Shown in pieces: positions 20,100 through 26,990 of a stretch of DNA of 64,000 nt. The notes beneath the pieces were generated by a model. The model was not told where the DNA came from. It did not search any database and saw only the letters and a list, made by a program, of their open reading frames with translations. Origin of the DNA: Pseudomonadota bacterium (GTDB lineage: Bacteria; Desulfobacterota; Binatia; UBA9968); contig JAJPJQ010000042.1 in NCBI GenBank assembly GCA_021324155.1, positions 124,001 to 188,000 of the forward strand. The letters are read 5' to 3'. A program made the position numbers and the translations under genes. Within the stretch, counting starts at the first letter, position 1, and each line of letters opens with the position of its first letter.

Positions 20100-21734
20100 T
20101 CAAACCGCTTCTTTTTCTTCGACCGGTAAGCCTGCGTCGAGCCAGGCGCGCCAGCCGCCGACGAGCGCGCGCGCCCGAGTCCATCCCGCCTTTCGCAGCT
20201 GCTGCGCCGCACGGGCGCTCGTCGCTTCGTCGGGTCAGGCGCAGAAAAGAATCAGCGATGTGTTCTTCGGGATGGCGAGCTCCGCCACTCGGCGCACGAC
20301 GTGCTCGGCGGGGATTCGGATCGCTCCTCCCGCTCCGCGCCTGTCGTCCAGCAGGCTGTGCTCCGAACGGACATCCAGAATGACTACCGGATCGCCGCTT
20401 TGGCGCAGCCGCCCAAGCTCGTCGATCGTTATGCGGTCGTCCGCTGGCCCGGCTGGCGTCTCTTGCGCAGGATGATCGATAGACACGGCATCGACCGTGG
20501 CCGGCGGGGCGCCGCGCAATTTGCTCGGCCGACGGCGGCGTCCGAGAAACATCAGCGAACCGCCGTGCAGCACGACCGAGAACAGCACGACGAAACACGC
20601 GACATGAAAAAGATAGTCGCTTCCGCGCGCGCCGGCGAAGACCGGAACCAGGATGAGCAGCAGGGAGCTCAAGCCGCGCGGGCCGAACCAAGCGATCAGC
20701 ATACATTCCTTCGGCTGGAGGTGCATCGTCGAGAGGGCGGCCAAAAATGCGACCAGCCGGACGAGCACGACCGAGACCGCAAGCAGCAGCACGGGCCAGG
20801 TCAAGACGGTGAAGCCGGTCCAAATGAGCGAGCTGCCGAAAAGGACGAACGCGAACAGCAGCGCCATCTCGGCGGTGGTCTCGCCGTATTCGAGAAAGCA
20901 GTCGCAGAGGTCGAGATCGAGCGCCGCGATCGTAAGTCCGGCCGTGAAGGCCGCGAGAAAGCCGCTGCCGTGGACCGATTCCGCGGCGGCGTAGGCGGCG
21001 AACGCGACGCCGAGCGAATAGAGCGACTCGTAATCCCGGCGGACGCCGACCTTGCGCCGTATCATGTCGAGCGCGGCGAGGGCGAGCAGTCCCACGGCGA
21101 TGCCGGCCCCGGGACCGAGTAAAAGGAAATCGAGCACGAGCCTAGCCCAATCGATCGGAACGAGTTGGCCGCCCTCCCTCAAAAACGGCAGCGCAACAAG
21201 AATCACGGGCAGAAGAACGATGTCGTTGAGGCCGCTTTCCAGACGTAGCGCCAGCCGCACGTTATCCGAGAGCCCCGGACGTCGCACAAGGCTGCGCAAC
21301 ATGACCGGGTCTGTCGAGGCGAGCGCGGCACCGAGAATCGCCGCCGCTGCAGGCGGGAGGTCGAGCACATACCAAGCGACCAGCGCGATCAGCAAGGCGC
21401 TGAGCACCGTGCCAGGGCCGAGCACGACAAAGGCGAGACGCTCGTGCCGCCGTACCTCCGCCATCGGCAGGCTTACGGCGTCGGTGAAAAGGACCAGCGT
21501 CAAGCTCAGCGTCGCGACGACGAAGAGAATCGGCGAATCTAGCCTGACATCGAGAAGGCGGAGCCCCGCCGGGCCGAGGACGGCCCCAAGCGCGAGAAAG
21601 ACGCCCACTTGAGGAACGTCGCTTCTGTCGATCAAGCCCGACAGCAGCGCTGCGATGATGATCACGACGCCGACCAGGGCGAGCGTGAACATGAAGAATT
21701 GCGGGTCGCCGGCGTTCATCGTCAGCCGGACCAT
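20100..21734 (-). CDS. CPA1 Na+/H+ antiporter fused to rhodanese; probable selenoprotein with in-frame UGA
   Basis: Read normally the frame stops at the UGA at 20235-20237 after 499 residues. Read through, it runs 44 more codons to a TGA at 20100-20102 (544 residues). Residues 10-415 are a CPA1 antiporter with 11-12 helices, ASTDPV (Asp142) and ESGLND (Asn170-Asp171). Residues 450-544 are a rhodanese: VVILDVRSEHS, then LILFCA-UGA-PDEATSARAA, ending LVGGWRAWLDAGLPVE, the canonical rhodanese finish. The UGA falls at the second position of a C-x-C-P-type loop (C498, residue 500), where I expect homologues to have Cys, the classic Sec site. A hairpin follows at 20204-20218. The alternative is a recent nonsense mutation, but the downstream codons show no decay. 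ATG 21719 is another possible start. Confidence 0.8.
20204..20237 (-). promoter_or_regulatory. UGA(Sec) codon with candidate bacterial SECIS hairpin
   Basis: On the minus-strand RNA, after the UGA (20237-20235) come 16 bases and then the stem GCGCC/GGCGC (20218-20214 with 20208-20204) closing the five-base loop CGUGC. The loop begins 21 bases past the UGA and has G at its second position, which fits the loose bacterial SECIS rule. The stem is only five pairs, so this is a candidate, not a proven element. Confidence 0.5.
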
Positions 21735-21870: not shown

Positions 21871-22641
21871 TCAATTCAGAACGACAAAGCCGTATTTTTT
21901 GAACGCCTGTCCGGCGGCGGCGCCAGCGACATATTTCATGAAATCACGCGCGGCGTCTTTGTGCTTCGATTCCTTGACGATCGCCGCCGGGTAAGTGATC
22001 TTCGGCCCCTTGTCGATCGGCACTTCGTAGGCGATCTTCACTTTCTTCGAAATCGCCGCGTCGGTCTTGTAGACGAAGCCGGCATCGACGTTTCCGCTTT
22101 CGACGGCGGTCAGCGTCGCCCGTACGTCCTGGACAGGAATGATCTTGGGCTTCACTTGATCCCACAGACCTCCGTCAGTCAAATATTTGGTCGTATAGCC
22201 GCTCACCGGAACCGAAGGCTCGGCGAGCGCGATCCGCTTGAAGTCCTGCTTCAGTAAATCCTTCGGCGATGACAGCTCGAGCTTGGAATCGGACGGCACG
22301 ACAATGACGAGCTGGTTCGAAAGCAGGTTTTTCCGCGTGCCGGGCTCCAGCAGTCCCTTTTTGTCGAGGTTGTCCATTTGCGGCAGATCGGCAGAAAAAA
22401 ACATATCCGCCGGCGCCCCTTCTTCGATCTGGCGTGCCAGGCCGCTCGACGGGCCGAAGTTGAATTTGACCGTATTCTTGGATTTCGCCTGGTAGCCCGC
22501 CGCGATCTCTTTTAACACGTCCGTGAGACTCGCCGCCGCCGAGACGAGAATCTCGTCGGCGCGCGCGAATGGCGGAAATGTCAGAAACATCGCTATTATC
22601 GCCGGACCGGCCCAGTTTCTTAACTTTTGCTTTAAGTTCAT
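21871..22641 (-). CDS. modA: Molybdate ABC transporter substrate-binding protein
   Basis: Binds periplasmic molybdate or tungstate. 256 residues from ATG 22641 (upstream in-frame ATG 22680 rejected because the signal peptide starts here: LRNWAGPAIIAMFLTFPPFARA). Family landmarks: VSAAASLTDVLKEIAAGY (oxyanion Ser), FGPSSGLARQIEEGAPADMFFSAD, LVIVVPSD, a Tyr-containing YTTKYL and ESGNVDAGFVYKTDA. modB and modC are not in the window. The Moco dehydrogenase at 48.5-51.2 kb would be a user of the metal. Divergent from the PaaA/C-like gene. Confidence 0.93.
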   Translation of the reverse strand: MNLKQKLRNWAGPAIIAMFLTFPPFARADEILVSAAASLTDVLKEIAAGYQAKSKNTVKFNFGPSSGLARQIEEGAPADMFFSADLPQMDNLDKKGLLEPGTRKNLLSNQLVIVVPSDSKLELSSPKDLLKQDFKRIALAEPSVPVSGYTTKYLTDGGLWDQVKPKIIPVQDVRATLTAVESGNVDAGFVYKTDAAISKKVKIAYEVPIDKGPKITYPAAIVKESKHKDAARDFMKYVAGAAAGQAFKKYGFVVLN

Positions 22642-22733
22642 GGTCTTCCGACCATAACAGTCACGCCCCGACCGCTTCAACGACCACCCTTGGTGCCCCG
22701 AAAAAAAGGTCTAAACTTAATATAGGAGGCATC

Positions 22734-24830: not shown

Positions 24831-26990
24831 ATGCCGGGAGACATCCTCCGCGAGGGGAAGAACTGCTGGAAGCTGGCCCATGCGGACCGCGTCAAGTTTC
24901 TAATCGACGGCGCGGCCTATTTCGCCGCGCTGGCCGACGCGCTGGAGCGCAGCGAGGAGTCGATCCTCATCGTCGGCTGGGACTTCGACAGCCGCATTTC
25001 GCTCCGGCCGAACGCGAAGCATTCGCGCGACCTTGGTCGCTTTCTCAAATCGTTGGTCTGGCGCAAACGCCGGCTGCGGCTCAACATTCTCATTTGGAAT
25101 TTCGCCGCCATCTACGCCGCGCTGAAGCGTGATTCGGTGCCGAAGTTTAACGCCGGGTGGGGCAAACATTCCCGCATCCGCTTCGAGATGGACGCCAACC
25201 ACCCGCTCGGGGCGTCACATCATTCCAAAGTCATCGTGATCGATGACAAGGTCGCATTCGTCGGCGGCCTCGATCTCGCCAAAGGCCGCTGGGACACGCC
25301 GGAGCATCCGGCGAAACTCGAATGGCGGAAGGATTTCGACGGCGCGGACCTGCCGCCGCACCATGACGTGCAGCTGATGGTCGAGGGCGACGCCGCGTGC
25401 GTCCTCGGCGATTACGCCCGCGAGCGCTGGTATAACACCACGGGCGAGCGGCTTCGCCCGCCACAACCGCATCGTCGCAACCCATGGCCGGCGGCGTTGA
25501 AGCCAGACGTCACCGACATTCGCGTCGGCATCGCGCGTACCGATCCGCCCTACGGTAGGAACGGCGCGGCGATCCGCGAGATCGAGGCGCTGTTCAAGGA
25601 CGCGATCGCCGCCGCGCGGAAATCGATTTTCATAGAAAATCTTTATCTGACCTCCGCCGTCGTAGGCGACGCACTGGCGGCCCGCCTGGAAGAGCCGGAC
25701 GGGCCGGAGGTCGTCATCGTCACGTCGAAAAGGAGCGAGGGCTGGCTCGAAGAGGCCACGATGGACGTTCTCCGCGCGCGCCTGCTCAAGCGCCTGCGCG
25801 CGGCCGACCGCCATCATCGGCTCGCCGTCTATTGCCCCGTCATCTGCGGTCTCGAAGACGGGTGTCTATCGGTCCATTCTAAGGTCATGGTTGTCGATGA
25901 CACCTTCGTGCGGATCGGCTCGGCGAACGTCGCCAACCGCTCGCTCGGCCTCGACACCGAATGCGATTTGGCCTTCGAAGCCGAGGGACGCGCCGAGGTC
26001 GTGGCCGAAATCGATAAGTTTCGCAATATGCTGCTCGCGGAGCACCTCGCCGTCGCGCCGGAAAAAGTCGCCGCCGCGGTGGGCGAAAAAAAATCACTGA
26101 TCGCGGCGATCGAGGGTCTTCGCTGCGATTCCCAGCGCTCGCTGGAGCCGGTCGACGCGACCGTCTCCGAGCTGCTCGACCGGATGGTTCCCGATTCCGC
26201 CGTGATCGATCCCGAGGCCCCGACCGCGCCCGAGCAGGTTGTGCAGGAAATCGTGCCGCCCGAGGAGCGTGGGTTTTCGAGCGGCTCGCTGCTCCGCGGC
26301 GTGCTCTTGCTCGTGCTGCTCTTCGCGATCGCGGCGGCGTGGCGGCTGACGGATTTGAAAGACTATGTCGATGTCGCGACGATCGCGAGTTGGGAAGGCT
26401 CGCTCGAGAATCATCCCGCCGCGCCCTTTATCGTTCTGGCCGGCTACGTCATCGCTGGATTCGCGGTATTTCCCGTCACGATCCTCATCGCCGCGACCGC
26501 CTTCGCGTTCGGGTCGTGGACCGCGCTCGCCTATTCTCTCGCCGGATGTATTCTGAGCGCGATCGCGATTTACGCGCTCGGCTATCGTCTCGGCCGTAAA
26601 ACCGTCATGCGGTTCACCGGCTATCGCTGGAACCGTCTCCACCGGCTCATCTCCAAGCACGGCATTCTCGCCGTCGCAACGATCCGCATGATTCCCATCG
26701 CGCCGTATTCGATCGTGAACCTCGCCGCCGGCGCCGTGCGCGTACGCTTCCGCGATTTCGTGCTCGGCACGGTTGTGGGCATGACCCCCGGCGTCGTCGG
26801 TATCACGCTTTTCGCGAGCCAGCTGGAAGAGATGATGCAAGATCCGAGCGGCTTCACGCTCATCTATCTGGCGGTCGTCCTCGGACTGCTGCTTTTCGCC
26901 GCCGCGACGCTGCGCCGCTGGCTCGGAGTCGGGCAAATGCACATCGAGGAAAAACCGACCCACGCGAAGCTTCCGGAGCATGTCCGCTGA
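24831..26990 (+). CDS. Phospholipase D/cardiolipin synthase-like enzyme fused to VTT (DedA) domain
   Basis: 719 residues. Two HKD phospholipase D motifs: HSKVIVID (His131, Lys133, Asp138) and HSKVMVVD (His349, Lys351, Asp356), each followed by FVGG or RIGSAN. From about residue 485 there is a transmembrane region with the VTT/DedA domain: FAVFPVTILIAATAFAFG, GRKTVMRF and RMIPIAPYSIVNLAAGA. PLD enzymes transfer phosphatidyl groups; VTT proteins scramble or flip lipids, so the fusion links lipid headgroup chemistry to a membrane segment. The EEP gene 6 bases downstream is its usual partner. Confidence 0.92.
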   Translation: MPGDILREGKNCWKLAHADRVKFLIDGAAYFAALADALERSEESILIVGWDFDSRISLRPNAKHSRDLGRFLKSLVWRKRRLRLNILIWNFAAIYAALKRDSVPKFNAGWGKHSRIRFEMDANHPLGASHHSKVIVIDDKVAFVGGLDLAKGRWDTPEHPAKLEWRKDFDGADLPPHHDVQLMVEGDAACVLGDYARERWYNTTGERLRPPQPHRRNPWPAALKPDVTDIRVGIARTDPPYGRNGAAIREIEALFKDAIAAARKSIFIENLYLTSAVVGDALAARLEEPDGPEVVIVTSKRSEGWLEEATMDVLRARLLKRLRAADRHHRLAVYCPVICGLEDGCLSVHSKVMVVDDTFVRIGSANVANRSLGLDTECDLAFEAEGRAEVVAEIDKFRNMLLAEHLAVAPEKVAAAVGEKKSLIAAIEGLRCDSQRSLEPVDATVSELLDRMVPDSAVIDPEAPTAPEQVVQEIVPPEERGFSSGSLLRGVLLLVLLFAIAAAWRLTDLKDYVDVATIASWEGSLENHPAAPFIVLAGYVIAGFAVFPVTILIAATAFAFGSWTALAYSLAGCILSAIAIYALGYRLGRKTVMRFTGYRWNRLHRLISKHGILAVATIRMIPIAPYSIVNLAAGAVRVRFRDFVLGTVVGMTPGVVGITLFASQLEEMMQDPSGFTLIYLAVVLGLLLFAAATLRRWLGVGQMHIEEKPTHAKLPEHVR

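Follow-up and report, generated by a model that had tools for sequence, protein, structure and literature searches.

A gene on the minus strand of a 64,000-nucleotide stretch of bacterial DNA (the window) encodes, as judged from its sequence, a CPA1-type cation/proton antiporter with a rhodanese tail, and the in-frame UGA codon in its rhodanese domain is almost certainly a selenocysteine (Sec) codon, which makes the gene that of a selenoprotein. An antiporter–rhodanese selenoprotein with Sec at the redox loop was the central claim of an initial annotation of the window, and it is supported by the checks named at that time: the pattern of UGA and Cys at codon 500 among homologues, the Sec genes of the same genome, and a SECIS-like hairpin after the UGA that covaries at three pairs. 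Genomes from several bacterial groups, a cultured isolate among them, carry the gene, and in every UGA copy the table-11 frame stops at the rhodanese loop; gene finders of the ordinary kind would cut the rhodanese part off at this codon. The features are as follows, in window coordinates.

20100..21734, minus strand: whole gene, predicted CPA1 antiporter–rhodanese selenoprotein, 544 residues with UGA read through
21222..21227, minus strand: Asn170-Asp171, the ND pair, expected CPA1 ion site; invariant in 15/15 aligned fusions
20898..20906, minus strand: Cys277-Asp278-Cys279, predicted cytoplasmic loop preceding helix 10; invariant Cys-x-Cys
20544..21656, minus strand: cation/proton antiporter domain, residues 27-397; Pfam PF00999 (Na_H_Exchanger), E=2.4e-38
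20136..20426, minus strand: rhodanese domain, residues 437-533; PF00581, E=8.9e-7, 29.7 bits, cut-off 22.2
20241..20243, minus strand: Cys498, rhodanese catalytic Cys position, directly after predicted strand 493-497
20235..20237, minus strand: UGA, predicted Sec500; UGA in 36/39 loci, Cys in 2, unread in 1
20204..20218, minus strand: SECIS-like hairpin, 5-bp stem GCGCC/GGCGC, loop CGUGC; first base is the 17th after UGA

Reading frame and homologues

The frame starts with ATG at 21734 and runs through FCA into TGA at 20235-20237, continues as PDEATSARAAQQLRKAGWTR...GGWRAWLDAGLPVE, and ends at a second TGA at 20100-20102, so that sequence and frame match the initial annotation throughout. Its expectation that ordinary annotation would end the protein at 499 residues is likewise correct, 499 aa being the ORF under table 11, after which 44 further codons follow without a gap up to the second UGA. 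Openness of the frame is weak evidence, because 44 open codons would occur by chance at this GC content in about 26% of cases (a rough estimate). Chance is instead excluded by homology, because 36 of 39 distinct loci, the window included, share the UGA codon and a conserved continuation.

These loci derive from several searches. A scan of a collection holding one genome per species yielded 16 (15 UGA, 1 Cys), and the window adds one. Profile searches at E <= 1e-100 matched 10 of 162 genomes in the class of Pyrinomonas (3 new loci), 20 of 400 sampled genomes in the phylum of a Ktedonobacteraceae genome (18 new, 17 with UGA plus the unread locus L112, whose contig stops before the rhodanese), and 2 of 395 sampled genomes in the phylum of the Cys homologue (1 new, with Cys). 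A fragment at a contig edge (L020, genome G001) was excluded from the count. No bias towards UGA is seen, because the profile, though built mostly from UGA proteins, treats UGA as Cys and reads through stops. Every one of the 38 readable loci carries either UGA (36) or Cys (2) at codon 500. Recurrence of the same UGA in 36 genomes makes an assembly error at this codon, which the initial annotation had named as a possible refutation, untenable.

Named UGA records carry the titles Deltaproteobacteria, Acidobacteria (with Pyrinomonadaceae and Bryobacteraceae), Chloroflexaceae, Ktedonobacteraceae and Candidatus Gracilibacteria, and one UGA locus (L056) belongs to the isolate Pyrinomonas methylaliphatogenes K22. 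Among genomes of the same family as the window's, G008 and G012 contain read-through orthologues with 66-67% identity, and G024 a partial orthologue; all three copies have a single in-frame TGA. A search of 25 family genomes with an exact DNA pattern, which proved too strict, matched two, the window's own included. A plasmid collection returned 22 matching records, none covering >80% of the query; among the 10 matches listed, 9 were annotated as cation:proton antiporter. The residue after Sec varies among homologues (P, T, R, K, Q, G and A are all found), so that of the Cys-x-Sec-Pro loop originally described, Cys-x-Sec stands and Pro as a family feature does not.

In a tree without outgroup, the two Cys proteins group as a single clade (100/100) nested among the UGA proteins, with moderate support for its exact place. 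This topology fits a putative single replacement of Sec by Cys in a lineage that has no Sec genes. Addition of three unfused outgroups gives a very long outgroup branch and leaves the base of the tree without resolution; the direction of the change therefore rests on nesting in the outgroup-free tree.

Inspection by eye of the four homologous loci listed showed no conserved gene neighbours. Upstream in the window, on the same strand, lies a gene that by eye is ModA-like (molybdate-binding-protein-like; 21871-22680), ending ~135 bases before the antiporter gene. Positions 24831-26990 encode a 719-aa protein in which a phospholipase D-like part seems, by eye, to precede a DedA/VTT-like membrane part.

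Selection, hairpin and selenocysteine genes

Rates of codon substitution indicate that the codons downstream of UGA are under purifying selection: across eight pairs, dN/dS after the UGA is 0.06-0.19 versus 0.07-0.20 in the antiporter part, rough values, since several pairs approach saturation at synonymous sites. The rhodanese segment before the UGA gives no value for 3 of the 8 pairs.

The hairpin was assessed in 36 fusions and 5 UGA-containing sequences of other architecture (41 in all; 40 distinct rows). All five pairs are kept in 40/40 distinct rows (200/200 cells paired), and three of the five show double compensatory changes, with 0/500 shuffles as high on these measures. One pair is doubly changed in L028 and L029 and two further pairs in L097 and L103. 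Two controls delimit this result: 94/500 shuffles equal the observed number of pair types, and sliding the partners by -3 gives a covariation score of 0.093 versus 0.097, although at that offset the paired cells drop to 66% and double changes are absent. Covariation became clear only with 41 rows. Earlier pair counts on the first 17 had been weak, with a double change at one pair (106/500 shuffles as high on that measure; 4/500 on three other measures).

The commonest sequence downstream of the UGA is AGCGCC-CGKGY-GGCGC. Loop positions G26 and G28 are invariant; the bSECIS apical loop carries a conserved G, according to a figure legend in PMC1794560. Codons under the 5' arm are, as codon usage suggests, constrained: Ser506 is AGY and Ala507 GCC in 14/14 tabulated fusion genes, whereas over those genes as a whole AGY makes up 0.33-0.53 of Ser codons and GCC 0.23-0.48 of Ala codons. 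Among the loci found later, L097 and L103 encode residues other than Ala at 507 and stay paired; the full stem is not preserved in either Cys gene. Rfam models found no SECIS at the hairpin region. In six sequences, the minimum free energy of the 60 nt starting at the UGA does not stand out from that of mononucleotide shuffles (z -0.7 to +0.6), so the hairpin would be missed by thermodynamics alone.

The window's genome holds SelA (603 bits, cut-off 268), SelB (412 bits, cut-off 242), a tRNA-Sec over cut-off (74.8 bits, anticodon TCA) and SelD, encoded next to selB and selA (L091 2189-3289, minus strand, contig C16) with an in-frame UGA of its own (AAG-U-AAKLGP); UGA-containing SelD is a known kind of selenoprotein. 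Across genomes, SelA is over cut-off in 33 of 36 with UGA (14/16 of the first set, 19/20 of the later) versus neither of the two with Cys (Fisher one-sided 0.014, kinship not corrected). SelA was scored in all genomes, SelB and tRNA-Sec in 20 (a set that leaves out G806 and the 20 later UGA genomes); of the first 16 UGA genomes, 12 have SelB over cut-off and 13 a tRNA-Sec of at least 60 bits. One metagenome-assembled UGA genome, G067, has none of SelA, SelB and tRNA-Sec over cut-off. SelA is also below cut-off in G069 and G554, and SelB in G058, G066 and G069; a tRNA-Sec of at least 60 bits was not found in G024 and G066. ARAGORN recovers tRNA-Sec (TCA) at 3 of the 4 loci given and none for the Pyrinomonas locus, though the Rfam model scores 75.8 bits there.

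Were the UGA a true stop, the product would be the 499-residue antiporter, and the downstream frame would be a decaying remnant or the result of a mutation or an assembly error. UGA does serve as a normal stop in this genome, as nine of 19 window ORFs picked by eye terminate with TGA. The codon is nevertheless shared by 36 of 39 loci, what follows it is under purifying selection and contains a covarying hairpin, the genome has Sec genes, and truncation would remove from the predicted rhodanese fold the helices and strands that follow residue 502, all of which leaves a true stop very improbable. A pseudogene is rejected on the conserved UGA, the purifying selection and the hairpin. Gracilibacteria read UGA as Gly, and one locus (L055) is titled Candidatus Gracilibacteria; even so, reading of this UGA as Trp or Gly through a changed code or generic readthrough is the least credible interpretation of all, since the window gene itself terminates at a UGA, full-length UGA copies have one internal TGA by the count of the genome searches, the sole alternative residue is Cys (2 loci, in genomes without a SelA match), and the L055 protein groups with a Chloroflexaceae protein in a genome (G064) with SelA, SelB and tRNA-Sec over cut-off. 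The title of L055 is probably that of a mislabelled bin. Under the selenoprotein reading, Sec would be inserted at UGA codon 500 under the direction of the downstream hairpin and the same genome's SelA, SelB, SelD and tRNA-Sec.

Domain architecture

PF00999 is found in 15/15 members of the fusion alignment, and Pfam detects only this domain and PF00581 in the fusions, with no RCK/KTN domain of the Kef type. The ND pair at 170-171 is taken here to be the CPA1 ion site. The nearest curated models are those of YcgO/NhaP2-type K+/H+ antiporters (NCBIfam PRK05326), with E=7e-43 and 146.8, 140.3 and 94.6 bits against cut-offs of 355, 309 and 471. The initial assignment as a CPA1 Na+/H+ antiporter is therefore retained for the CPA1 type, on PF00999 and the ND pair, and is not secured for the ions, the nearest equivalogs being K+/H+ antiporters, all under cut-off.

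An AF2 model recovers an antiporter fold of mixed confidence, with MjNhaP1 and then PaNhaP as its best solved matches, and a rhodanese fold (pLDDT block means 65-91) in which strand 493-497 ends just before Cys498. The model as a whole is weak (mean pLDDT 69.5), and loop 274-284 and linker 401-430 are both under 50. Thirteen spanning helices can be counted in the antiporter part. According to the consulted portion of PMC4381896, MjNhaP1 has 13 spans and a cytoplasmic C-terminus. Because the helix count equals that of MjNhaP1, the rhodanese and loop 273-287 are both predicted to be cytoplasmic, the location of the loop resting on helix counting because the AF2 model is weak there. From the dimer-interface passage on MjNhaP1 in the same paper it follows that in PaNhaP helix 10 extends into the cytoplasm; His292 in that helix is described there as key for transport.

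The rhodanese domain belongs to a recognized type. NCBIfam model NF041203 (rhodanese_LYCAU) matches the fusion with E=3.9e-24 over profile positions 21-126, scoring 84.7 bits for the whole protein and 88.5 for the domain alone. Both scores are under the cut-off of 115, so the fusion is filed as a relative of NF041203 rather than as a member. This 'rhodanese-related (seleno)protein' corresponds to rhodanese-like form 3, CxU, in a table of PMC13188914. Selenium rhodaneses were described from the outset as a known group, and both the model and that table list the CxU type. What was announced as a new selenoprotein is thus not new as a seleno-rhodanese domain type, which is catalogued, and appears to be new as an antiporter fusion. 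In the consulted parts of two selenoprotein reviews, PMC13188914 among them, the word 'antiporter' is absent and no cation/proton antiporter occurs, though other papers on new selenoproteins may mention the fusion; the portion of PMC12013277 consulted contains neither 'rhodanese' nor 'antiporter'. NCBIfam holds no model matching the fusion beyond the separate antiporter and rhodanese ones.

The same type of rhodanese also follows a DedA-type membrane protein in L029 835-1818 (G010), L088 941-1966 on the minus strand (G001) and L089 (G012, two places). These DedA-type fusions have an in-frame UGA (CSUPNEATSAR) and the same hairpin, L089 being read in its C-terminal parts only. A free-standing rhodanese with a CAU motif and, by eye, a signal-peptide-like start (L028 1456-1827, G016) scores 158.9 bits against NF041203, over the cut-off, and so represents the catalogued seleno-rhodanese type within the same family of genomes. 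One seleno-rhodanese module is hence joined to two different membrane proteins, of CPA1 and DedA type.

Proposed redox coupling and relation to known systems

The antiporter part carries a pair of cysteines of its own. Cys277-Asp278-Cys279 is present in 15/15 aligned fusions, and Cys-x-Cys also occurs in the other fusions in which the region is readable, L106 having Thr in place of Asp. The motif is absent in 8/8 unfused antiporters, two of which have the first Cys (position 277), although these comparators are few and distant. The idea of redox-gated transport, raised with the initial annotation, gained support from this invariant Cys-x-Cys in the transporter. A partnership between C-x-U and C-x-C is proposed from their shared predicted cytoplasmic side, the invariance of Cys-x-Cys and the role of helix 10.

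The rhodanese forms the predicted cytoplasmic C-terminal tail, the site of regulatory domains in relatives, E. coli YcgO being one. In the proposed mechanism, Cys498-x-Sec500 would act as a fast thiol/selenol redox or persulfide centre and would exchange with Cys277-x-Cys279 of the cytoplasmic loop before helix 10. Making or breaking of a (seleno)disulfide would turn antiport on or off in answer to oxidants, persulfides or electrophiles, and selenium shortage would lead to termination at the UGA, leaving an antiporter without a complete sensor domain. A selenoprotein in which exchange between Cys498-x-Sec500 and Cys277-x-Cys279 switches antiport is the best joint explanation, and we judge it slightly better than an even bet. 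The separate statement that thiol/selenol exchange lets the rhodanese control the antiporter is tentative, with a probability that falls just short of even. That its exchange partner is specifically the C-x-C loop is doubtful. Also unlikely, if conceivable, is the complete selenium redox switch, in which C-x-U trades disulfide or persulfide bonds with C-x-C to gate antiport and UGA termination under selenium shortage produces a sensor-less form.

Across the fusions, the two domains are joined by a linker of anywhere between 22 and 91 residues, and this variation, together with its pLDDT of <50 over 401-430, argues against a rigid gate. A variable and probably disordered linker is also what favours the main alternative, which accepts the selenoprotein and takes the rhodanese to be an independent putative enzyme (a sulfurtransferase or a peroxide/persulfide reductase) that the antiporter tethers to the membrane, without control of transport. 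The occurrence of the same domain alone (L028) and on a DedA-type protein (L029, L088) likewise suggests a portable module. Against this stand the position of the rhodanese at the site of the regulatory domains of CPA1 relatives, as described in the consulted portion of PMC11808508, and the extra Cys-x-Cys in the transporter, which goes along with the fusion. Such a tethered enzyme has a considerable chance of being right, though one clearly below even.

The fusion would link selenium with ion and pH homeostasis. If the switch is real, the pH and cation balance of some Acidobacteria, Chloroflexota and relatives of the window's organism would be governed by selenium supply as well as by oxidant load, and the C-x-U and C-x-C motifs offer a concrete residue pair for covalent redox gating of a transporter.

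Several known systems bear comparison. Like members of NF041203, the fusion has a rhodanese with Cys-x-Sec (C498-A499-U500), but it differs from them in falling below the 115-bit cut-off and in being joined to a CPA1 antiporter. Other membrane transport proteins with predicted Sec are named in the part of PMC13188914 consulted (SO_0444 Cu/Zn efflux, E1-E2 ATPase, YeeE/YedE and SaoP); they belong to other protein families, none of those named there being a cation/proton antiporter, and most are implicated in metal or metalloid resistance. YcgO/NhaP2 antiporters share the arrangement of a membrane domain followed by a cytoplasmic C-terminal region, through which E. coli YcgO is regulated according to the same portion of PMC11808508. 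The fusion departs from that arrangement in having, by Pfam, a rhodanese in place of an RCK/TrkA or CorC domain, and in the Cys-x-Cys of the loop preceding helix 10. The logic proposed here resembles that of KefB and KefC, in which, as set out in the consulted part of PMC11150392, a cytoplasmic C-terminal domain senses the thiol/electrophile state and controls K+/H+ exchange. The RCK domains of Kef bind glutathione adducts according to the same source, whereas the fusion has no RCK domain and its putative sensor would work by covalent Cys/Sec chemistry.
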